Part shown: positions 8,269 to 60,007 of the stretch, piece after piece
Numbering within the stretch: position 1 is the first letter of the stretch
How the letters are laid out: every line of letters starts with the position of its first letter
Origin: a bacterium
GTDB taxonomy: Bacteria; Sysuimicrobiota; Sysuimicrobiia; Sysuimicrobiales; Segetimicrobiaceae
NCBI GenBank assembly: GCA_035307765.1
Contig: DATGHU010000034.1
Coordinates: 191,417-255,416 of the forward strand
Reading direction: 5' to 3'
Length of the DNA: 64,000 nt
The notes under the pieces: model-generated
What the model saw: the letters and a program-made list of their open reading frames with translations, nothing else
Databases searched by the model: none
What the model was told of the DNA's origin: nothing
Program-made: the position numbers and the translations under genes

Positions 8269-10215
8269 CTACAGGTGGGCGGTGAAATGGGCGCGCAGGG
8301 TCTCGCCACTTCCGGTGGTGACGACAACGTCGATTCTCCAGTCCCCTTTGGTCAATCGGGCGTCCGCAATGAAGTGCCCAGGGCCGAACCGGCGCGCAGA
8401 CAGCGACAGAGGAACCTTCCCAGTCCCGGCCGCGAGAATCTGGGGAAATCGCGGGACCGGAAGCTCGCCGCCTGCAGCATTAATGAAGGTCAGGTGCAAC
8501 TCGTTGAGTCCTGGCTTTCCAGGATCGAGGTACGCGTCCAACAGACGGCGACCAGGGAGATCGATGTTGTAGAGGGCGGGCTGGCCCGGGGTTTGCAGGA
8601 TCCGAACGGCCTGGGGAGGGGTCCGGGTGGTCACCGCGAGAGGCACCTCCACGGCGGTACGCTGTCGTTCAATGACGGCGGTGACGAGCCAGGGTCCGTC
8701 GAGGGAAATGTTCACCCCCTGCCCCTGGTACGTTCCATCGGCCGCGCGCCGTAGTTCCAGCGTCGAGGCGCCAATGTCCGGTCGCGCGGGAGCCATAAAC
8801 CGCAGAGTGACCCGTTCCGCCGCGATGGGACGCCGCGTATCATAATCTGTAATCTGTGCCACGAACCGGTTCACGCCGGGGACCCCCGGGGTGACCTCCA
8901 GGTGGACTCGAATCGTCGTGGCGTAGTCGTTGGCCGTGGCCGTGACGACCGACACGGCGGATGCGGCGCCCCCGGTGAGGCTGGGCGGCGCCAAGCCCGT
9001 CAGCAGCCCGGCCACGGCCAGCACCACCGCCGCAAGCCCCAACTCAGTTCCCCCTATCCGACGCAGACCGCGCAGGGTCTTGGTGGCAGCGGGAACACTC
9101 CGGTAGCGGTTCACTGCTCCAAGGCTCGCGAGGACGAGCAAGAACGCGGCCTTGACCAGCACGACCTGCCCGAAATCGCTGGTGAGCAGGGCCCCCCAGC
9201 TCCCCACCTCATCGACCGCGCGAAGCACGCCCGTTGCCGCAACAACGACCAGTGCCACCCCGGCTCCGGTTGAGAAGCGCCGGACCAGAATAGCTTTGTC
9301 GCCATCTGGCCTGCCACGGACGGCCACCAGCAGGGCAGCGAGGCCCCCGACCCAGATGCCGATGCCGGCAAAGTGCAGCCACTGGTCCATGATGTTCGGC
9401 CATCGCCATGGGCCTGCGCCCGCGCCAGGATGCCCGGCCAGCACATGCGCGAGCATCGCGCCTGCCGCTCCTATGCCAACAATAAGAAGGGCGCGGCGAC
9501 GTGAACGGATGGATAGGCGTTGGGTCGCTCCAATGGCGATTCCCGCAATGCTGAGCGGGAGCGCCCTCCAAGCGAGGGCGAGACCGAGCGGTGTTCCGAG
9601 GAGGCGGCCGATCCCGACTCCCGCGTCGGCCGCCTGGGCCAGACCCAGGACGACTAGCCCCGCCGCGGCAAACGCCCACAGCATCCACAGATATCCCGCG
9701 CTCGGCATCACGGGCTCGTGGGCTGCCAGCGCCCACACCCATGCAGCCCCCAGCAGACCGCTCAGGCCAAGATACCACCCCCAACGGCTGATGACGTAGA
9801 GCGGTGAGGGCCACGGCGGCCTCCCTTGCGCTGCCGGAACCGTCCCTGGAGAGACACCGATCCCGAACCCAAACGCGCCCCCGGTTACGTGGCCATCGAC
9901 GCGGGATACGGTCCGCCAAGTGACCGTGTACACCCCGTTCAGGAGCGGGCCGAGAGGGACTCGTAGCTGCCGCGGATTCTCTGGAACGACCTGTGCCCCT
10001 CCGCGATCGACCACCCGGCCGGCATTATCGAGCACGTGGACCACGGAGAGGGTCGGCTCGGGTTCCTCGGTGAAGGTCATGGTCACAGCGGCGGGTGACT
10101 TCTGGAGAACGGCTCCGCTTGCGGGGGTAGCTTCGCGCAACAGCGCGTGTGCACCGGCCGGGGACGCGATGACGAGTACGGTTACGAGCGCGAGGGTCGT
10201 GCCCCGCGAGAACAC
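8269..10215 (-). CDS. CopC-CopD fusion with a C-terminal beta-domain (copper handling)
   Basis: 648 residues in three parts. Residues 1-125 are a signal peptide and a CopC domain; the mature protein starts HALLREATPASG, placing a histidine at the first positions as in copper-binding CopC. Residues 140-410 hold about eight membrane helices of the CopD type, with conserved histidines in AHVLAGHPGAG and QWLHFAGIGIWVGGLAAL. Residues 440-648 form an extracytoplasmic beta-rich domain (VHLEVTPGVPGVNRF, then ELRRAADGTYQGQGV) similar to the FixH/YtkA-like domain often fused to CopD. CopC/CopD proteins take copper across the inner membrane or pass it to oxidase assembly. The start is GTG 10215. Confidence 0.85.
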   Translation of the reverse strand: MFSRGTTLALVTVLVIASPAGAHALLREATPASGAVLQKSPAAVTMTFTEEPEPTLSVVHVLDNAGRVVDRGGAQVVPENPRQLRVPLGPLLNGVYTVTWRTVSRVDGHVTGGAFGFGIGVSPGTVPAAQGRPPWPSPLYVISRWGWYLGLSGLLGAAWVWALAAHEPVMPSAGYLWMLWAFAAAGLVVLGLAQAADAGVGIGRLLGTPLGLALAWRALPLSIAGIAIGATQRLSIRSRRRALLIVGIGAAGAMLAHVLAGHPGAGAGPWRWPNIMDQWLHFAGIGIWVGGLAALLVAVRGRPDGDKAILVRRFSTGAGVALVVVAATGVLRAVDEVGSWGALLTSDFGQVVLVKAAFLLVLASLGAVNRYRSVPAATKTLRGLRRIGGTELGLAAVVLAVAGLLTGLAPPSLTGGAASAVSVVTATANDYATTIRVHLEVTPGVPGVNRFVAQITDYDTRRPIAAERVTLRFMAPARPDIGASTLELRRAADGTYQGQGVNISLDGPWLVTAVIERQRTAVEVPLAVTTRTPPQAVRILQTPGQPALYNIDLPGRRLLDAYLDPGKPGLNELHLTFINAAGGELPVPRFPQILAAGTGKVPLSLSARRFGPGHFIADARLTKGDWRIDVVVTTGSGETLRAHFTAHL

Positions 10216-45899: not shown

Positions 45900-47594
45900 T
45901 TACGCTTGTTCAGGGACCTTCGGCCGATTACCTAACCAGCGGAGAATTTCCGGTACGGGTTCAGGGATCGCCAGCCCTGGTTCCATTGCGATTAATCGCG
46001 CCCTTGTTGGCTTTCCCACGTTGGGAAACTTTTGGCAAAGTTCCTGATACTTCTGTTCACCGAGTGCCTTACGCAAATGGTCTTCGTAGCAGGTGTCCAA
46101 CCGCCAGACACGTACAGTCCCCACCGGTTGGTGCAGAGCGTCCAACTGGGTGTTATAAGTAGTCTCTTCGCCCTTTTTGTCGCTCGAAAAATCAGACGAG
46201 TCGCTGTCGTACACTACCCCTGTCGGGATACCAAATGAGATGGCGATCTTAGCGAACTCCATCAAGTTGCGTTTCCCACCCGCCTCAATAATCGTGGCCC
46301 CGGCTTGATCAAGATCGATCCCAAGGTCTCTGGCGTATTCCGGTAGAGCGAGCTTTTCGGTATCACCTTCAACGATAAGAAGCCGCGTTGCGAAGAATAG
46401 CTCGTTTCTCTCAGGGTCTAATTCCTTGATGAGCTTTTCCCGTCGCGCGCTGTCGCTCGGCAGCCTTGAAATGGTCACGCCAGTTCTGCCGGTTTGCTTG
46501 CGGACCAGAACGATTTCTTTGTAGTCGGGTACTGCGACAAAATGAGGCGAATGAGTAGTATAGATGATTTGGTTCTTCTCTCCGATCCTGCGGAGAGTCT
46601 TATAAAGCGCTCGCTGCATTTGGGGATGTAGAAACATTTCCGGCTCTTCAATGAGCAGGATTGCTCCCCGTCTTTGGGTTTCTTCAAAAGCCTGCAGAAT
46701 CGCGAGAACGATGGCATTTTGCATACCTTCACCCATCTCCTGCGCGCTTACAGTAAAGCCGTCCTCGCGGACATGCAGGTCTAACGTTTTGTAGAAGTCG
46801 AGGCTATCAATTGGCTTGAAATAGAGATCGATCTTGCTTGCATCGTTCACCGGATCAAAACCGAGCTGCTGAAGCACCTTGTCTTTAATAGACGATTCCA
46901 CTTCGTTGAACGCATCAGTGTGGAGGAGTTCAAGCGCTGACTCCATTAATTCTCGGAAGCGCTCGATGCGAGACACCATCACTTCGGTTCCGTCCCCTCG
47001 CTTTACCCGTACAGTGTTTTTGGGGTCTTGTAGCCCGCGGTTGATGTCTTCGAACATCTGGCGCAGGAGCGAATAGCGCGCGCTCGGCAGCTGCTCTTTC
47101 AGAGACCGATTAGTGCCGATGTAGATGAGCGGAACAGCATCGCGGACCTCGGGTGGGATGCCGATGAGGCGTTCGTACTGATGTGTCTGTCCCATTTTCG
47201 GGGCCTTGGTAAGAACGCTTGGCGGCTTGCCCCTTTCATCGCGGCAACTTTGCTCTAATCGGGGCTGGCCTTTCTTTTCGCCCATCTTGTACCGTGTGTA
47301 TTCAAACGAGAGGCCATGAACATCGGTCCGGGGTGCCTCCTTGAAATGATGATATGAAATCGGCGGGTCTACCGAGCACGAAATCGTGACAGCCGCTTCA
47401 GTGCGCATGAAGATATCCTCTGGGGAGAAGCTCGACGCCGCAACCCAGTTTGTTCCTAATATTCTGCGAAGGGCTTCTAGAATGTTGCTTTTTCCGGCAT
47501 TGTTGGGGCCGATTAAGGCGCAGATCTGCGGCACCTCGAAAGTGAGACTCTCGATCGAGCGAAAGTTCTCGATCCGGAGGGATTTGATTCTCAT
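45900..47594 (-). CDS. OLD-family ATPase with TOPRIM nuclease domain
   Basis: 564 residues. The SMC-like ATPase N-terminus starts MRIKSLRIENFRSIESLTFE with Walker A GPNNAGKS (residues 29-36). The ABC-like signature region is SAQEMGEGMQNAIVLAIL, Walker B is AILLIEEPEMFLHP (about 310-320), and the switch His is in IIYTTHSPHF. The TOPRIM domain follows: LLIVEGDTEKLALP, then GVVYDSDSSDF. OLD proteins are DNA nucleases used in phage defence (P2 Old; GajA of Gabija). No UvrD-like GajB partner is adjacent, so this is a stand-alone or class 1-type OLD. It lies divergent from, and only 41 bp from, the ThiF fragment. Confidence 0.88.
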   Translation of the reverse strand: MRIKSLRIENFRSIESLTFEVPQICALIGPNNAGKSNILEALRRILGTNWVAASSFSPEDIFMRTEAAVTISCSVDPPISYHHFKEAPRTDVHGLSFEYTRYKMGEKKGQPRLEQSCRDERGKPPSVLTKAPKMGQTHQYERLIGIPPEVRDAVPLIYIGTNRSLKEQLPSARYSLLRQMFEDINRGLQDPKNTVRVKRGDGTEVMVSRIERFRELMESALELLHTDAFNEVESSIKDKVLQQLGFDPVNDASKIDLYFKPIDSLDFYKTLDLHVREDGFTVSAQEMGEGMQNAIVLAILQAFEETQRRGAILLIEEPEMFLHPQMQRALYKTLRRIGEKNQIIYTTHSPHFVAVPDYKEIVLVRKQTGRTGVTISRLPSDSARREKLIKELDPERNELFFATRLLIVEGDTEKLALPEYARDLGIDLDQAGATIIEAGGKRNLMEFAKIAISFGIPTGVVYDSDSSDFSSDKKGEETTYNTQLDALHQPVGTVRVWRLDTCYEDHLRKALGEQKYQELCQKFPNVGKPTRARLIAMEPGLAIPEPVPEILRWLGNRPKVPEQA

Positions 47595-47635: not shown

Positions 47636-48130
47636 GTGACGCGTCTTCTTCAGAATCCCGAGTACTTCCTTCGTGCGGACTCGCTCGCCGCTCGCGAGCA
47701 GATTAACGCCTTCTGCCGTCGTCACCACCTACCCCTTGTTGATATCGGGATGACGATCCTGACAGAGGGCGAGCATCTCGCGTTGGCCCACGGCCAGCTC
47801 GTGCTTGTAACGCCGGACTCCGCCTGTCTCCGCTGCGGGCCGTTACTTTCCGATGCGGCTCTTGAGCGCGAACGTACTGTGCGTCGACCGGGTTATGATC
47901 GGAATCCCGAGACCCTGGGAGACCCTCAGGTGGTATGCATGAATGGGGTCCTTGCCTCAGGGGCGGCGAATAGCGTTCTCAACCTCATCACTGGATATGC
48001 GGGTGTGGCCCGGAATGCAGGTTGGTGGAGTTATGATGGTCGCCAGGGAGCCCTCATTCCCTGTGCGTCGCCAGGGGGGGCTGTCCTGCCTACGCCGAGC
48101 AAGGTCATGGCGATTTGCCTTAATGACTAG
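47636..48130 (+). CDS. 5'-truncated ThiF/E1-like protein (C-terminal part of the adenylating fold)
   Basis: 164 residues that match only the second half of a ThiF/MoeB/E1 domain. DSLAAREQINAFCRRHHLPLVDIG is the strand-helix after the adenylation site, CLRCGPLL (Cys64, Cys67) is one half of the zinc or thiol motif, and MNGVLASGAANSVLNLITGYA is the classic closing helix. The glycine-rich nucleotide loop and catalytic Arg/Asp that should precede residue 1 are absent; instead the OLD gene begins on the other strand. It cannot adenylate a substrate as it stands. The start is GTG 47636; the nuclease-like gene follows 9 bp on. Confidence 0.72.
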   Translation: MTRLLQNPEYFLRADSLAAREQINAFCRRHHLPLVDIGMTILTEGEHLALAHGQLVLVTPDSACLRCGPLLSDAALERERTVRRPGYDRNPETLGDPQVVCMNGVLASGAANSVLNLITGYAGVARNAGWWSYDGRQGALIPCASPGGAVLPTPSKVMAICLND

Positions 48131-48139
48131 GGGGGCCTC

Positions 48140-49465
48140 ATGACAGCATTTTCCTCGCGACACATAGCTGGGATCGATGCGAATCGCACTGTCAAAGATG
48201 AGTTGGCTGCCGCCATCGCCCGCAGGTCGGCAAGGCGCAGAATCTCGGTCACCGACCTAGTGAACCCGCGACAGACCTTCTTTAGCCGAACTCGGCCAGA
48301 CATTGTCATCTCCGCAGACCGTAAACAGTTGATGATGGCAGGGACCGGGTTCCATGACTTATTCGGTCGCGCGGTCTCGACGGAAGAGTACGTCGAGCAG
48401 TTCGTTGAGTTTGAAGAGATCGTCGGCAAGATCGACGTCTTCGAGAGCGAGCCGATCGAGCTAAAGACCACCTCCTCAATCCCCACAGAGGTGCTCACAT
48501 CACGTCCGGGTCAGGTGGAGCAACTAGCGATGTACTGCGCGATGGTCGCCAGGCCCTTAGGGCACCTCCTGTATTATCGACGGTCTGAGTACGGGCGCGA
48601 GCCTCTCCTCAAGGCGTTCGACGTGGAAATGACGGATCGCGACCACATCGTGCGCGAGATGCTTCAGCGTCGCGACCTCCTGCGTGCCGCTCTCGACACC
48701 GGGGATCCCTGCCACCTCCTCCGCTGCGAGTGGTTTGGCCGGGACTGTACGTATGCGGACGTTTGCGGTTGCGTCACCGCGCAGCCGCTCACGCGCATGG
48801 TTTCGACCGGGACAGTCCGCATCGCAGAGAACACCGCACTGGCCGAGGTCCTCAAGGCTAAGATCCTGGCAGTGCCCCCGATAGGGCCGGCCGACAACTT
48901 CACGCTGAACGACCTGGTATTCCCGCGGAAAGCGGCCCTCCGGCGTGATGGCATCCCAGAGAGTGGGGAGCCAGATGCAGGCGAACAAATGGAGTCGATG
49001 GAACGTCGTGGTTTCCTTGACGTGCTTGAGGACGCGGTGTGGCACGGAGTACCTGGGGCCTGCCGGACAACCAGGGTGCAGTTTGGGCCCATTCGCGGAT
49101 CGCTGCTGCTTTACCGGGGGATCCCGACGTTGCTGCGCGCCACCAAACGCAGGGAGATGATCCCCCGAGACCGCCTCGCTGTCGATGCCCCTTACTACAC
49201 GGACCGACTCGCCTTCGAGTGCGCGATGGCGGGCAGTGAGAAGGGAAGGCTCATCATCTACTATTCTGCTCTGGAAGACAAGTTCATGGTGTACGACTTC
49301 TGGTTTCGAGATCTCGAAGGCATTCGGGCCGAGATGCGCAGGCGCCTCGATTTGCTCCAATCAGGCGCCCAACCAAATGAGCTTCCGCCCTGCGAGCCGG
49401 CCTGGATGAGCAGGCTCTGCAACTTTGGGCACAAATGTGCCTGTGCGGGGGTCCCGCGGCGGTGA
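48140..49465 (+). CDS. Cas4-like PD-(D/E)XK nuclease built of two tandem units
   Basis: 441 residues. Unit 1 (about 34-212) has VTDLVNPRQTFFSR, the nuclease core Asp99...Glu107-Leu-Lys109 (VGKIDVFESEPIELKT), QLAMY (Gln128, Tyr132) and cysteines 191, 196, 203, 209 and 211, as in Fe-S Cas4/RecB-type exonucleases. Unit 2 (about 254-441) repeats the order: LNDLVFPRKAALRR, a core IRGSLLLYRGIPTLLRATK in which the acidic and Lys residues are lost, RLAFECAM, a matching helix, and cysteines 418, 427, 433 and 435. One unit should be active and the other structural. It is co-directional with the ThiF fragment and away from any CRISPR genes. Confidence 0.75.
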   Translation: MTAFSSRHIAGIDANRTVKDELAAAIARRSARRRISVTDLVNPRQTFFSRTRPDIVISADRKQLMMAGTGFHDLFGRAVSTEEYVEQFVEFEEIVGKIDVFESEPIELKTTSSIPTEVLTSRPGQVEQLAMYCAMVARPLGHLLYYRRSEYGREPLLKAFDVEMTDRDHIVREMLQRRDLLRAALDTGDPCHLLRCEWFGRDCTYADVCGCVTAQPLTRMVSTGTVRIAENTALAEVLKAKILAVPPIGPADNFTLNDLVFPRKAALRRDGIPESGEPDAGEQMESMERRGFLDVLEDAVWHGVPGACRTTRVQFGPIRGSLLLYRGIPTLLRATKRREMIPRDRLAVDAPYYTDRLAFECAMAGSEKGRLIIYYSALEDKFMVYDFWFRDLEGIRAEMRRRLDLLQSGAQPNELPPCEPAWMSRLCNFGHKCACAGVPRR

Positions 49466-49747: not shown

Positions 49748-50011
49748 ATGAGGATCGCCGGATTGTTCGCCGGCATAGGCGGGATCGAGGTCGGCCTTGA
49801 GGGGGCGGGGCATTCGACGGAGTTCCTCTGCGATATCGACCCCTGCGCGCAAGCTGTTCTACGGCATCGTTTTCCCGGGGTGCCAGTCGAATCCGATATC
49901 CGCAAGATCCGTTGTCTCCCGAAGAACGTCGAGCTACTTACCGCCGCCGCCCCTCCTCCCCCGCCCGACCCCTTCCCCCCGTGCATCGCGACCCCACCGA
50001 CTACATCGTAA
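49748..50011 (+). pseudogene. N-terminal fragment of a C5-cytosine DNA methyltransferase
   Basis: The first 65 residues match the Dcm/HhaI-type start: MRIAGLFAGIGGIEVGLEGA (motif I, SAM binding), EFLCDIDPCAQAVLRHRFPG (motif II), then SDIRKI and VELLTA. The next residues should be GFPCQ with the catalytic Cys; instead the frame runs into a proline-rich stretch and stops. Motifs IV to X and the target-recognition domain are absent, so there is no methyltransferase activity. It is the scar of a lost restriction-modification or solitary methylase gene. Confidence 0.8.
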
Positions 50012-52651: not shown

Positions 52652-55600
52652 TTGCGCGCCGAAGGGCACAAGATAGTCCATGCAGGCCTCGGTCAGGACC
52701 ACGACTTCCAGGCGGCGGCCAAAGCGACAATCGAGGCAATCCACGCAGGCGCCAAGTATATCTACCAGGCCGTCTTCTTCGTTGATGGTTGGCGCGGGGT
52801 CGCAGACTTCCTCGAGCGAGTCGAGCGGCCCTCTGTTCTCGGCGCGTGGAGCTATGTAGTCCTTGACACCAAGCTCGCCCGACATCCGCGACCCGAGCAC
52901 GCCCTTCAGCTCTGCTTCTATGCGCACTGTCTCAGGCGAATCCAGGAGCTCGAGCCCGAAATCGCGTACGTTGTCCTTGGCACCCGGGAGCGCATCCCAA
53001 TCAGGCTTGCAAATATATTGGCCTATTACCGCCGGTTGCGGCGGCGCTTCGAGTTAGCAGCAGAAGGGCGCGCCCAAACCGCGCCCTATCCGTGCGAGCA
53101 TTGCCCCCTGTGCGACTTCCGGCCGGTCTGTGAGGAACGCTGGAATCGTGAGGATCACCTTGTCCGCGTTGCTGGTATCCGTCACGATCAGGTCGATCGA
53201 CTCGTGACCGCCGGCATCACCACGTTGACCGCCCTGGCTGAGGCACGTTCGGGCATACGAATTCCGAAGATGGCCGCTCCGGCGTTAAAGGGCTTGCATG
53301 AGCAAGCCGCGCTGCAGCTTGAGCGTCAATGTTCGGGAAAGATCCAATATAGTGCGCTTCCGATCGAAGATGGTCGCGGTCTCGCGGTTCTCCCCCAGCG
53401 ATCGAAGGGTGACATCGTCCTCGATCTTGAGGGACATCCCTTCTTTGAGCCCGCGCGGGGCCTGAATTTTCTCTTTGGTGTCCTCACGTTTGATGGCCTT
53501 GAACCGCATTACGATGTCTTCTGGGCGCACGACCGCGATGGCGAACGCCGGGTATTCGAAGGCTTCGTTGACCTCGTCCACACGCGGCTTGCCCTTTACC
53601 CCGATCTCCACGTGTATCACTTCGGCGCTTACGAGCCGACCGCGATCAAACGGCTGATGGGCGAGTACGCGACGCGTGAGACTGAAGTGGACGAACTGCT
53701 CCGACGCAAAACCTTTGTTGATCTCCATGCCGTCGTACGTCAAGCTCTGCGGGCAGGCGTTCCGAGTTACTCACTTAAGGAGCTTGAACTATTGTTCTCT
53801 TTCACGCCGTCCGCCGCAGTGCGTTCGGGCACGCAGGCGATTCTCCAATACGAGCAGTGGATCTCGACGAAGGACGACGCGTTTCTTGCCGGGATCGCCG
53901 CATACAACGAGGACGATTGTCGGGCGACCCACGCTCTCCTCGGCTGGCTCCACAGATTGCGCCCGGCTGACCTCCCGTGGCCTACTATCCCGGCAGCACC
54001 GACTGTTACGGAAGAAGCGTCTGCGGCATTAGAGGCTCGCCAGCGCCTTCGCGAGGAGCTCTTGAGGGGTGCCGAGCCAGGCACGCCTCGCTGGCTCACC
54101 GCCGAGCTCCTTGAGTACCATCGCCGCGAGGCGCGACCGGCTTGGTGGTGGTACTTCGAGCGGCTCGGCATGACGCCGGAGGAATTGGTTGATGATTCTG
54201 AGTCGATCGGCTGTCTTGAATCCGATGCGAACATGCCGCCCAAACCGCGCAAGAGATCTGTCCTTCATATGCTCAGGTTTCCACCTCAGGACCACAAGCT
54301 CCGACCCGGGCCGGCTGACGACCCGGCGACCGGGAAGAGCGCTGGCGAGATCCTGGAGATCGACGAGGCCACCGGGACACTCTGGCTCCTGCGCGGTCCG
54401 ACGCTCGCGGGGGTGCCGCTTCCACGGGCTCTCATCGCCACGGGCCCCTATGATGATCGTCAGCAACGTGAGGCCGTGCTTCGGTTTGCTGAATCGATCA
54501 GAGATGGTGACAATCGCTATCCGGCGCTCCAGGCGATTCTGGGTCGAGAGCGCCCTCGGACTCGTGGGCTAGCTTCGGGTGATCGAATCCAAACGACCGA
54601 TTTGGCTCGCATGGAGCACCTCGCACTCAGCCTCGACGACAGCTACCTTTTCTTGCAGGGACCGCCAGGGACGGGCAAAACAAGGACCGGAGCTCGTCTC
54701 ATCGTGCACCTATTGGTCCACGGACGGCGGGTGGGAGTTACTTCCCAAACTCACAAGGCAATCTACAACCTGCTTCATGAAGTCGAGGCTGTCGCACACG
54801 AAAAGGGCTTCAGCTTCCGCGGTCTCAAGAAGTCGACTGCCGGCAATCCGGAGTCGAAGTACGAAGGCGAGTTCATCAAGAGCGAATCGGACGCATCGGC
54901 GGTCTTCTCCGCGTCCGATGTCCAGCTTCTCGCGGGTACAGGGTGGCTCTTTGCACGTGGCGACATTGATGGTCAGCTCGACTATATCGTAATTGACGAG
55001 GCTGGCCAGATCTCGCTCGCCGACGCGATCGCCATAGGGACCTCATCCCGAAACATAATCCTGCTTGGCGACCCTCTTCAGCTTGCACAGGTAACCCAGG
55101 GTTCACACCCGTCGGGTAGCGGGGTATCGGTCCTCGAACACCTTCTCGGTGAGGTGGCCACGATCCCGGAAGACCGCGGCGTGTTCCTAGATCACAGTTT
55201 CAGGATGCACCCTGATGTGTGCGCATTCCTCTCAGAGATGGTCTACGCTGGCAGGCTCCACTCCGACCCCTGCGCGGCACGACGCGCGACCTCCTTCGGG
55301 ACCGGCATCCGCTTCGTTGCTGTCGAACATCACGGAAATCGCTCTGCCTCGGACGAGGAGGTCGCACAGATCGCAGCCCGGATTCAAGAAATGCTTCGAG
55401 GTTCGTTCACCGATGCGAATGGAACGACCCGGCCGATCCGCGAAGACGACTTCATGGTCGTAGCGCCCTACAACGCTCAGGTACGGTGCCTTCGAGCAGG
55501 TTTGCTAGCTGGTGTGCGCGTCGGCACCGTTGATAAGTTCCAAGGTCAGGAGGCCCCGATAGTCTTCTTTTCCATGGCGACCTCCAGCGGCGAGGATGTC

Positions 55601-55789
55601 CCGCGCAATCTTGCTTTCCTCTTCTCTCGCAACCGTTTGAACGTAGCAATCTCTCGGGCGCAGTGCCTCGCCGTTCTTGTCTGCTCGCCGCGGCTACTTG
55701 AAGCGCGCTGCCGGTCGATTGATGAGATGGAGCTTGTGAACGCACTGTGTCGGTTGGTTGAGTACGCTGACGGGAGGGCGCAGGGATAG
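52652..55789 (+). CDS. TM0106-type RecB-like nuclease / RNase H-like / SF1 helicase fusion
   Basis: 1045 residues from the first standard start, TTG 52652. The RecB-like nuclease (FVDGWRGVADFLERV, SYVVLDTKLAR) is followed by a cysteine cluster (CEHCPLCDFRPVC), an RNase H-like exonuclease domain (GDIVLDLEGHPFF, VYHFGAYEPTAIKRL, YNEDDCRAT), and a Dna2/UPF1-type SF1 helicase with Walker A GPPGTGKTRTG (about residue 669), VIDEAGQISLADA (about 778), GDPLQLAQV and VGTVDKFQGQEAPIVFF. Homology continues in frame upstream to 52502 (SDLTNFVACEHLTQLELG, then EEHEIRIL). In that stretch an in-frame TAG (52478-52480) follows ATG 52463 by five codons and no usual start remains. Confidence 0.85.
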   Translation: MRAEGHKIVHAGLGQDHDFQAAAKATIEAIHAGAKYIYQAVFFVDGWRGVADFLERVERPSVLGAWSYVVLDTKLARHPRPEHALQLCFYAHCLRRIQELEPEIAYVVLGTRERIPIRLANILAYYRRLRRRFELAAEGRAQTAPYPCEHCPLCDFRPVCEERWNREDHLVRVAGIRHDQVDRLVTAGITTLTALAEARSGIRIPKMAAPALKGLHEQAALQLERQCSGKIQYSALPIEDGRGLAVLPQRSKGDIVLDLEGHPFFEPARGLNFLFGVLTFDGLEPHYDVFWAHDRDGERRVFEGFVDLVHTRLALYPDLHVYHFGAYEPTAIKRLMGEYATRETEVDELLRRKTFVDLHAVVRQALRAGVPSYSLKELELLFSFTPSAAVRSGTQAILQYEQWISTKDDAFLAGIAAYNEDDCRATHALLGWLHRLRPADLPWPTIPAAPTVTEEASAALEARQRLREELLRGAEPGTPRWLTAELLEYHRREARPAWWWYFERLGMTPEELVDDSESIGCLESDANMPPKPRKRSVLHMLRFPPQDHKLRPGPADDPATGKSAGEILEIDEATGTLWLLRGPTLAGVPLPRALIATGPYDDRQQREAVLRFAESIRDGDNRYPALQAILGRERPRTRGLASGDRIQTTDLARMEHLALSLDDSYLFLQGPPGTGKTRTGARLIVHLLVHGRRVGVTSQTHKAIYNLLHEVEAVAHEKGFSFRGLKKSTAGNPESKYEGEFIKSESDASAVFSASDVQLLAGTGWLFARGDIDGQLDYIVIDEAGQISLADAIAIGTSSRNIILLGDPLQLAQVTQGSHPSGSGVSVLEHLLGEVATIPEDRGVFLDHSFRMHPDVCAFLSEMVYAGRLHSDPCAARRATSFGTGIRFVAVEHHGNRSASDEEVAQIAARIQEMLRGSFTDANGTTRPIREDDFMVVAPYNAQVRCLRAGLLAGVRVGTVDKFQGQEAPIVFFSMATSSGEDVPRNLAFLFSRNRLNVAISRAQCLAVLVCSPRLLEARCRSIDEMELVNALCRLVEYADGRAQG

Positions 55790-58039: not shown

Positions 58040-58249
58040 GTGACGCCCAACGCGCGGCAGGGAACAGGCGCTCGACCTCCCGAGACGCTCGGGAAGAAGA
58101 GAGGAACGCCCGCTGATGACCGGCGAAGCGAACGGCCTATGACCGTGCGGCTCATCCAAGTCGAACCCGATCTTGGGGCGCAGGACGTCATGGATCGGGT
58201 GTGGCACCAGCTCCTCGCGGATGATCCTGCTGCGGAGGAGTCAGCGTGA
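58040..58249 (+). CDS. Small accessory frame coupled to the large serine recombinase
   Basis: 69 codons from GTG 58040, or 36 from ATG 58139. The C-terminal part (TVRLIQVEPDLGAQDVMDRV, then WHQLLADDPAAEESA) looks like a real short protein, while the first 33 residues are arginine-rich and less convincing. Its TGA overlaps the GTG of the recombinase (GTGA), so ribosomes would pass directly to it. GGAGGAG at 58022-58028 could serve the longer start. Function unknown; small coupled frames upstream of serine integrases may control their expression. Confidence 0.45.
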   Translation: MTPNARQGTGARPPETLGKKRGTPADDRRSERPMTVRLIQVEPDLGAQDVMDRVWHQLLADDPAAEESA

Positions 58250-59796
58250 AGGCAGCTCTCTACGTGCGCGTCTCGACAATCGACCAGGTCGAGAAGTGGT
58301 CGCTCGCGGCCCAGAAGCGGGCCCTCGTGGAGTTCGCCGAGCGCCAGGGTTGGACGTACGGGGTCTATGAGGATGCCGGGATCTCCGGGGAGACGCTGGA
58401 CGCTCGTCCCGCAATGTTGCGGCTGCTCGAAGATGCCCGGGCCGGGCAGATCCAGGTCACCGTGGCGATCGAGATGGAGCGGTTCAGCCGGTCGGAGAGC
58501 CTATTCGACTGGCTGGTGATCAAAAAGGCATTCCGGGAGGGCAAGATCAAGTTCGGGACGCCGCAGCAACTCTACGATCCAGCGGATGCCGAGGACGACT
58601 TCCTTACAGACCTTTTTGGAGCGCTCGCCAAGCGCGAGAAGCGCAAAATCCTGGAGCGCACCCGTCGCGGCCGGCTGGAGGCGGCACGCCGGGGACGGTT
58701 CGTGGGCACGCGCATCCCGATCGGCTACCGGCTCGCCTCGCCGGGCGTCTTGGAGGTCAATGAGCAGGGCGCGCGCATCGTGCGACTGATCTTCGACCTA
58801 GCGCTGCGGGGCCGCAGCACGAGGGCGATCGCCCGAGACCTGTTACGGCGCGGGATTTCGTCGCCCCGGGGGGTCCGGACGTGGACGCACTCCGAGGTGG
58901 GCCGCGTCCTGCGCAACCCGGCGTACGTCGGGCGGATGCGGTTCAACCGCCGTCGCGTGGTCCGCGAGGGCGCCGGCCGCCGGCTCGCGCCAACCCCCGA
59001 GCACGAGTGGGTGGAGATCGCGATCCCTCGCCTCGTCAGCGAGGAAACGTTCCGGCGCGTCCAGGACCAGCTCCGCCGGAACCTCCTGTTCTCGCCGCGC
59101 CGGAGGAAGGCCACGTACCTCGTCGCCGGCCTCATCCGCTGCGGCGTGTGTGGGGCCGCCAGATCAGGATCGAGCGCCGACGGTCGCGGGTACTACCGCT
59201 GCAACAACGCGATCGACCCAAAGCCCGGGCACGAGCGATGCCGGGCCCGTCCGGTCCGGTCCGACAAGTTGGACGCGGCGGTGTGGGCCCAGGTGGTCGC
59301 CTCACTGCGCCAGCCGGACGTGATCCTCGAGGCGGCCCGACGATACCGGGAGTCGCATCTCGGGCAGCGCGACGAGCTGCTAATACGCCTGGAGGCGTTG
59401 CGGACCGCGATGTCGCGGGTCCCGGAGGAGCGCGAGCGGGTGCAGCGGCTGTACCGTGAAGGGCTGGCTTCGTTCGAAGAGACGAAGAGTCACGTGGGCG
59501 AAATCGACCGCAAACGCTCGGCGCTCCACCAAGAGAAGGAGACGCTCGAAGCGCGCTTGTCCATGCAGACCGCGGACGAGGCGGAGGCGGATCGCCTAGG
59601 TCGAGTGGTCCGGCGCGTTGCCGACCGGCTCGAGCTGCTATCGCCTGGACAGCGCGTCGAGGTCATCCGCGCGTTCGTCCGTCGGGTCGTCGTCCTACCG
59701 GGTCCCGAGATCCAGGTCCATGCCTTCGTGCCGGTCCCCGGTCGCCAGGAGGAGCAGCAGTACGTGGGGGCGACATGGGAGGCAGCGCTGTCATGA
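58246..59796 (+). CDS. Large serine recombinase (site-specific integrase)
   Basis: 516 residues. The catalytic domain starts KAALYVRVSTIDQVEKWSLA with the nucleophile Ser10; AIEMERFSRSESLFDWLVI carries the conserved Arg, and LTDLFGALAKREKRKILERT the long helix. The recombinase domain follows (TRIPIGYRLASPGVLEVNEQ, TWTHSEVGRVLRNPAYVGRM), then a zinc ribbon with CGVCGA (about 298) and further Cys in YYRCNNA and HERCRA, then a coiled-coil (about 370-450). It integrates or excises DNA at att sites without resolvase-type reversal. GGAGGAG precedes GTG 58246. Its last codons run into a gene read on the other strand. Confidence 0.92.
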   Translation: MKAALYVRVSTIDQVEKWSLAAQKRALVEFAERQGWTYGVYEDAGISGETLDARPAMLRLLEDARAGQIQVTVAIEMERFSRSESLFDWLVIKKAFREGKIKFGTPQQLYDPADAEDDFLTDLFGALAKREKRKILERTRRGRLEAARRGRFVGTRIPIGYRLASPGVLEVNEQGARIVRLIFDLALRGRSTRAIARDLLRRGISSPRGVRTWTHSEVGRVLRNPAYVGRMRFNRRRVVREGAGRRLAPTPEHEWVEIAIPRLVSEETFRRVQDQLRRNLLFSPRRRKATYLVAGLIRCGVCGAARSGSSADGRGYYRCNNAIDPKPGHERCRARPVRSDKLDAAVWAQVVASLRQPDVILEAARRYRESHLGQRDELLIRLEALRTAMSRVPEERERVQRLYREGLASFEETKSHVGEIDRKRSALHQEKETLEARLSMQTADEAEADRLGRVVRRVADRLELLSPGQRVEVIRAFVRRVVVLPGPEIQVHAFVPVPGRQEEQQYVGATWEAALS

Positions 59797-60007
59797 ACCC
59801 GACCGGGTTGTATTGCGGAGCGTTTGTCAGCCCAAAGGCGCCCGACAGACTCGCCGCCGCCATGTTGAAGAGATTCGTCAGAGGGCCGAACAGGTCGCCG
59901 GTCGATGCGCCGCCCGAAGGTCCAGGAGTCTGTCCGGCGGCTGGAGCGACCGACATCAGGATGGTGACGAGTCCGAGTGCCCCGCTCGCACGTCCACGAA
60001 GCCACAC
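59771..60007 (-). pseudogene. 5' part of an exported protein gene, apparently cut by the recombinase element
   Basis: The frame starts at GTG 60007, one base after the stop of the VirB10-like gene. It has a signal peptide (SGALGLVTILMSVAPAAGQ), a Gly/Ser stretch and FGPLTNLFNMAAASLSGAFG, then NPVGFMTALPPMSPP. Beyond about 59770 it would be read inside the recombinase coding region and becomes Arg/Gly/Pro shadow sequence. The natural end is missing, as expected if the element carrying the recombinase inserted here. Confidence 0.6.

Follow-up and report, generated by a model that had tools for sequence, protein, structure and literature searches.

A tandem Cas4/RecB-like nuclease family that couples a predicted active unit to a retained pseudo-nuclease unit

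Cas4 nucleases have been described as single-unit proteins. According to the available text of PMC5704561, every Cas4 member is a predicted active nuclease with four cysteines; the paper also notes a link between Cas4-like nucleases and YprA helicases, which was suggested to be defensive. In B. subtilis, the MrfAB system acts on mitomycin-C damage as a UvrABC-independent repair route, as given in the available part of PMC11194089. Here we analyzed a window of 64,000 nucleotides from a genome of the bacterial class that belongs to the CSP1-3 group, now named Candidatus Sysuimicrobiota. It encodes a protein in which a Cas4-type layout appears twice, once with and once without the catalytic residues.

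The nuclease gene (48140..49465, + strand) is an intact open reading frame of 441 amino acids, with which 11 homologues align over their full length and in which both units are under purifying selection. It follows, on the same strand and after a gap of 9 bp, a 164-residue E1/ThiF 3' remnant (47636..48130, + strand); the positions and the spacing given for this pair in a preceding sequence-only reading were reproduced by our ORF calls. The nuclease yielded no significant match to Pfam or NCBIfam, Cas4 and PDDEXK_1 profiles included, and nothing significant in PADLOC, so that its earlier Cas4-like assignment had rested on motifs. A search of the PDB with the single protein sequence produced no match, and searching with the family profile brought up no more than a weak match to Cas4 (4r5q, E 0.023). 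Unit 1 of one homologue (L017) has a match, with an E value of 2.2e-14, to PHROG 1706, which is annotated as CRISPR/Cas system associated. A CRISPR link was rejected for the nuclease: no cas1 was found in the whole genome of the window, and no CRISPR-like direct repeats were found at 44.5-58.5 kb of the window, in line with the sequence-only reading, which had noted no cas1, cas2 or repeats nearby.

The two units occupy residues 20-215 (unit 1; 48197..48784, + strand) and 233-436 (unit 2; 48836..49447, + strand). Aligned by hhalign, the profiles of unit 1 and unit 2 gave a probability of 99.5% and an E value of 2.6e-23 over 188 columns at 27% identity; control profile alignments with the ThiF fragment and with the TM0106 RecB domain showed no match. 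At the level of sequence profiles, chance does not account for the duplication. Among single-unit proteins, the nearest relative of unit 1 is the Cas4-like protein L022, encoded at 8443-9135 (- strand) on contig 18 of G021, where it adjoins genes for a DnaB-like protein and a family-A polymerase and probably belongs to a prophage. L022 matches unit 1 with an E value of 8.8e-17 and unit 2 with one of 5.4e-8. A protein of the L022 type was rejected as the source of unit 2, L022 being closer to unit 1. Units 1 and 2 are closest to each other and not to L022, which fits an internal duplication.

The family alignment, which comprises 12 sequences, separates the two halves clearly. The motifs of a RecB-type PD-(D/E)XK nuclease are present in unit 1, where His72, Asp99, Glu107-x-Lys109 and Gln128-x3-Tyr132 are invariant, and the set is absent from unit 2 in all 12 proteins. 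The sequence-only reading had numbered Asp99, Glu107, Lys109, Gln128 and Tyr132 correctly, and our alignment adds His72 to this list. In unit 2 of the window protein the counterparts of the catalytic residues are Leu293, Leu323, Leu331, Arg333, Arg356 and Glu360, the last five being the replacements that had been read there before. Across the 12 sequences, position 293 is mostly Arg, 323 Gly or Leu, 331 Leu or Ile, 333 and 356 Arg, and 360 Glu. Stray catalytic letters occur as His293 in L005, Asp323 in L020 and Lys333 in L021; the Glu, Gln or Tyr of the set is kept in unit 2 of none of the 12. Unit 1 is the more conserved half, with a mean pairwise identity of 61% versus 55% for unit 2. In both units dN lies far below dS, as expected under purifying selection; between G038 and G030, the dN/dS values are 0.002/0.126 for unit 2 and 0.012/0.110 for unit 1. 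The dead half is thus itself maintained by selection.

Unit 1 is predicted to be an active nuclease on these grounds, and the same alignment bears on the idea that the Cas4 fold is used here without catalysis, in a DNA-binding or structural capacity, with the unit-1 motifs being kept for metal or DNA binding. Such a use has a precedent in TP1 of TTV1, in which Cas4 was exapted as a capsid protein (PMC4625639), and unit 2 is already catalytically dead. The full catalytic set of unit 1, however, is invariant across homologues that are 45-60% identical to the window protein, and we regard a wholly non-catalytic protein as quite improbable.

Each unit ends in a cluster of four cysteines, C196-x6-C203-x5-C209-x-C211 in unit 1 (48725..48772, + strand) and C418-x8-C427-x5-C433-x-C435 in unit 2 (49391..49444, + strand). 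All eight residues are invariant across the 12 sequences, in line with the earlier remark that unit 2 keeps four cysteines. Classical Cas4 proteins have one N-terminal and three C-terminal cysteines, whereas the tandem nuclease carries all four at the C-terminal side of each unit; the classical N-terminal position is occupied by Asn42 in unit 1 and by Phe261 in unit 2. The description of the layout as Cas4-type consequently stands for the motifs and the fold and fails for the arrangement of the cysteines. The clusters are possible Fe-S or Zn sites. The single-unit protein L022 is likewise without the N-terminal cysteine.

AlphaFold2 models were built on six sequences and reached a pLDDT of 78.5 for the whole protein and of 70.9 for unit 2 alone. 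Both halves are modelled with a like order of elements, in which helices are followed by three strands, then a pair of helices, two more strands and lastly a long helix, and not as a single domain or with an unrelated second half. Foldseek searches of the PDB returned Cas4 SSO0001 first both for the whole model (E 2e-5, TM-score ~0.5) and for unit 2 modelled alone (E 1.3e-6, TM-score ~0.5); LHK-Exo came next, and RecE, lambda exonuclease or MGME1 ranked lower. The models support a Cas4/RecB fold, but with TM-scores near 0.5 and shallow alignments they do not support a particular placement of the units relative to each other. Taken together, the pattern of conservation and loss, the selection on both halves, the same order of fold elements and the match of unit 2 alone to SSO0001 indicate, from sequence and models, that the active/pseudo-nuclease tandems form a real family, and they bear out the earlier proposal of a Cas4-type layout present twice in one protein.

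The family is narrowly distributed. Within the class of the window, whole-genome searches located the tandem nuclease in 10 of 43 genomes. Across 84,980 species genomes, a pattern search, which reaches only close relatives, retrieved five full-length relatives of 46-59% identity, namely three Armatimonadetes-labelled metagenome-assembled genomes of the CSP1-3 group and two Chloroflexota. When 386 sampled genomes, most of which belong to other families of the domain, were searched with the family profile, no further member turned up outside the class. This sample is small, and together with the reach of the pattern search it leaves room for a wider family. A phage or plasmid origin was rejected: tblastn with two family members gave no hit among 50,697 phage and 72,556 plasmid records, and a scan of viral contigs with the family alignment detected no relative.

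A recurrent genomic context was seen in another family than that of the window, denoted f2 (genomes G012, G021, G030, G036, G038 and G040). In all six f2 genomes with a readable mrfAB locus, mrfA, mrfB and then the nuclease gene lie on one strand, the distance from mrfAB to the nuclease being about 84 bp in G012, 6.1 kb in G021, 0.1 kb in G030, 0.7 kb in G036, 0.75 kb in G038 and 2.4 kb in G040. In G030, mrfA encodes the Zn-binding domain of MrfA, and those mrfB genes that were tested encode an RNase_H_2 domain with TPRs. A gene for an RNase J-like beta-CASP metallo-hydrolase (L017 7196-8749, - strand) lies 20 bp downstream of the nuclease in G021; it recurs close to the nuclease in two other genomes, at L018 and, in fragmentary form, at L023, and its product is a possible further partner.

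The nuclease was not found beside mrfAB in the window's genome, in G041 or at the Chloroflexota loci. The two MrfA-type helicase genes of the window's genome are located on another contig and ~60 kb away. MrfA-type helicases are present in 39 of the 43 class genomes and the nuclease in 10 of the 43, so MrfAB does not require the nuclease. Because the association is confined to f2, and mrfA lies elsewhere in the window's genome, the link is suggestive only, and the f2 neighbourhood may represent one inherited arrangement. It nonetheless offers a testable connection of a Cas4-like nuclease with MrfAB repair and not with CRISPR.

In the window, the gene lies within an insertion. Two conserved chromosomal segments that are contiguous in the relatives G001, G005 and G010 are separated in the window's genome by a 64,063-bp insertion (C34 187182-251245), which is absent from the equivalent site in these three relatives and takes up nearly the whole window (1-59829). 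Its right junction lies near window position 59829 and its left junction ~4.2 kb to the left of the window start; the ends carry imperfect inverted sequences (GCAATACAACTCCCGGGTCGG versus CCGACCGGGTTGTATTGC). A large serine recombinase with Pfam Resolvase, Recombinase and Zn_ribbon_recom domains is encoded at the right end (58246..59796, + strand). The insertion is close to a gene for a LonB/LonC-like protease.

Among the other genes of the insertion are an OLD/GajA-like ATPase-TOPRIM gene (45900-47594, - strand), which runs on the strand opposite to the ThiF fragment, starts ~40 bp from it and has no obvious GajB helicase gene beside it; a truncated C5-cytosine methylase covering the first 70 of 324 profile positions (49748-50011, + strand); and a gene for a 1045-residue fusion of a TM0106-type RecB nuclease, an RNase H and an SF1 helicase (52652-55789, + strand), found in one other genome of the family only (G005, 57% identity). 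This company, the patchy presence of the nuclease in the class, the toxin-antitoxin, Fic and PLD-nuclease/ATPase genes next to its relatives, and the proposal in the available text of PMC5704561 that pairs of a Cas4-like nuclease and a YprA helicase are defensive would all suit an anti-phage nuclease, whether stand-alone or accessory, that mobile elements and defence islands carry. This is the main rival of a repair function, but no defence partner recurs from locus to locus, the best PADLOC hit was DruK at a non-significant E value of 0.03, plasmid and phage collections lacked the nuclease, and the f2 neighbours are the repair-type MrfA-MrfB and not a defence operon. We hold a defence role to be possible, if on the unlikely side.

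The ThiF neighbour had been taken, together with the nuclease, as a possible descendant of an E1-plus-nuclease defence module. The ORF is indeed the C-terminal part of a ThiF/E1 protein, as had been recognized, since its Pfam ThiF match is confined to profile positions 118-221 of 238 (E 7.8e-7). When it is aligned with complete E1 proteins from multiubiquitin operons, its start falls near residue 105, so that ~104 N-terminal residues are gone and the fragment is without the ATP-binding Rossmann part and its glycine-rich nucleotide loop. Its closest plasmid relatives are E1 proteins of about 30-40% identity, and most of the E1 relatives examined reside in ubiquitin-like conjugation operons with multiubiquitin and E2-type genes; beside the fragment, no multiubiquitin or E2 gene was recognized.

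The 9-bp spacing, the shared strand and the operon setting of the E1 relatives could speak for the remains of such a module. Against this, none of the 11 other homologous nuclease loci has a ThiF gene upstream or nearby, the ThiF fragment finds no match in 60 related genomes, and the E1 operons examined contain no nuclease of the tandem family; a viral scan with ThiF also recovered no relative. With no nuclease homologue adjoined by ThiF, an E1-nuclease module was rejected, and a descent of this one pair from such a module is very improbable. The truncation point of ThiF abuts the divergent OLD gene, which gives the fragment the look of a junction scar. In view of the insertion, the absence of ThiF in relatives and the truncated methylase at 49748-50011, the pair is best read as nuclease cargo next to unrelated debris, and the pairing as incidental. 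The locus also cautions that a gene spacing of 9 bp within an insertion can be accidental.

The reading that we favour, with a chance we would put at about even, is that of a metal-dependent DNA nuclease, unit 1, whose pseudo-nuclease partner, unit 2, shapes the path of the DNA in repair-type processing. The protein would be a stand-alone Cas4/RecB-type DNA nuclease born of internal duplication. Unit 2, a retained pseudo-nuclease that shares the fold of unit 1 and has a cysteine cluster of its own, would probably complete a DNA-binding or channel surface, making the chain a covalent pseudo-dimer. The most likely role of the protein would be the processing of DNA ends or damaged strands in DNA repair, and in at least one bacterial family the nuclease may work alongside the MrfA helicase and the MrfB 3'-5' exonuclease. 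In the window, its gene would be cargo of the serine-recombinase-bearing insertion, unrelated to the E1/ThiF fragment upstream. A bolder version makes the protein the third part of an MrfA-MrfB repair machine, in the form of a covalent active/pseudo dimer whose cysteines bind two metal centres. The DNA would be guided by the dead unit, while the live unit would degrade the strand that is complementary to the one degraded by MrfB; we consider this version unlikely and offer it as speculation.

Several described systems resemble parts of this picture. The fragment upstream of the nuclease is like the E1 proteins of multiubiquitin/E2/E1 operons at ~30-40% identity, but consists of the E1 C-terminal half alone and is without a link to the nuclease. 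With the Cas4-like/YprA (COG1205) association described in the available text of PMC5704561, the f2 loci share a nuclease near a YprA-family helicase with pfam09369; here, by contrast, a repair-type MrfB accompanies the helicase, the nuclease has two units, and the window itself does not show the link. The mitomycin C repair system resembles the f2 loci in the MrfA and MrfB homologues, which lie upstream of the nuclease, and differs in that the available part of PMC11194089 describes no third, Cas4-like tandem gene. In the systems of PMC12458937, too, a live nuclease domain is coupled to a dead one from its own superfamily, but there the domains (Vsr, EEP or PLD) are part of a helicase fusion and do not form a separate Cas4-like tandem.

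The closest relationship is to Cas4 and solo-Cas4 and to the Cas4-like pfam12705 nucleases, such as SSO0001 and Pcal_0546 (PMC5704561, PMC4176176). These share with the tandem nuclease the RecB-type fold, the H, D, E-x-K and Q-x3-Y residues of unit 1 and the four conserved cysteines found in each unit, and SSO0001 is the top fold match in the PDB. The tandem nuclease differs from them in having two units per chain, of which the second is dead, and in residing in a genome without cas1. A term search of the available text of PMC5704561 brought up no tandem or duplicated Cas4 (the string 'duplicat' does not occur in it), and our searches found no literature on tandem inactive Cas4-like nucleases. 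The fold and the catalytic chemistry were known already. The conserved active/dead tandem, whose cysteine clusters are wholly C-terminal, is apparently undescribed in the literature searched; it presents the Cas4 fold as a covalent pair of an enzyme and a pseudo-enzyme.
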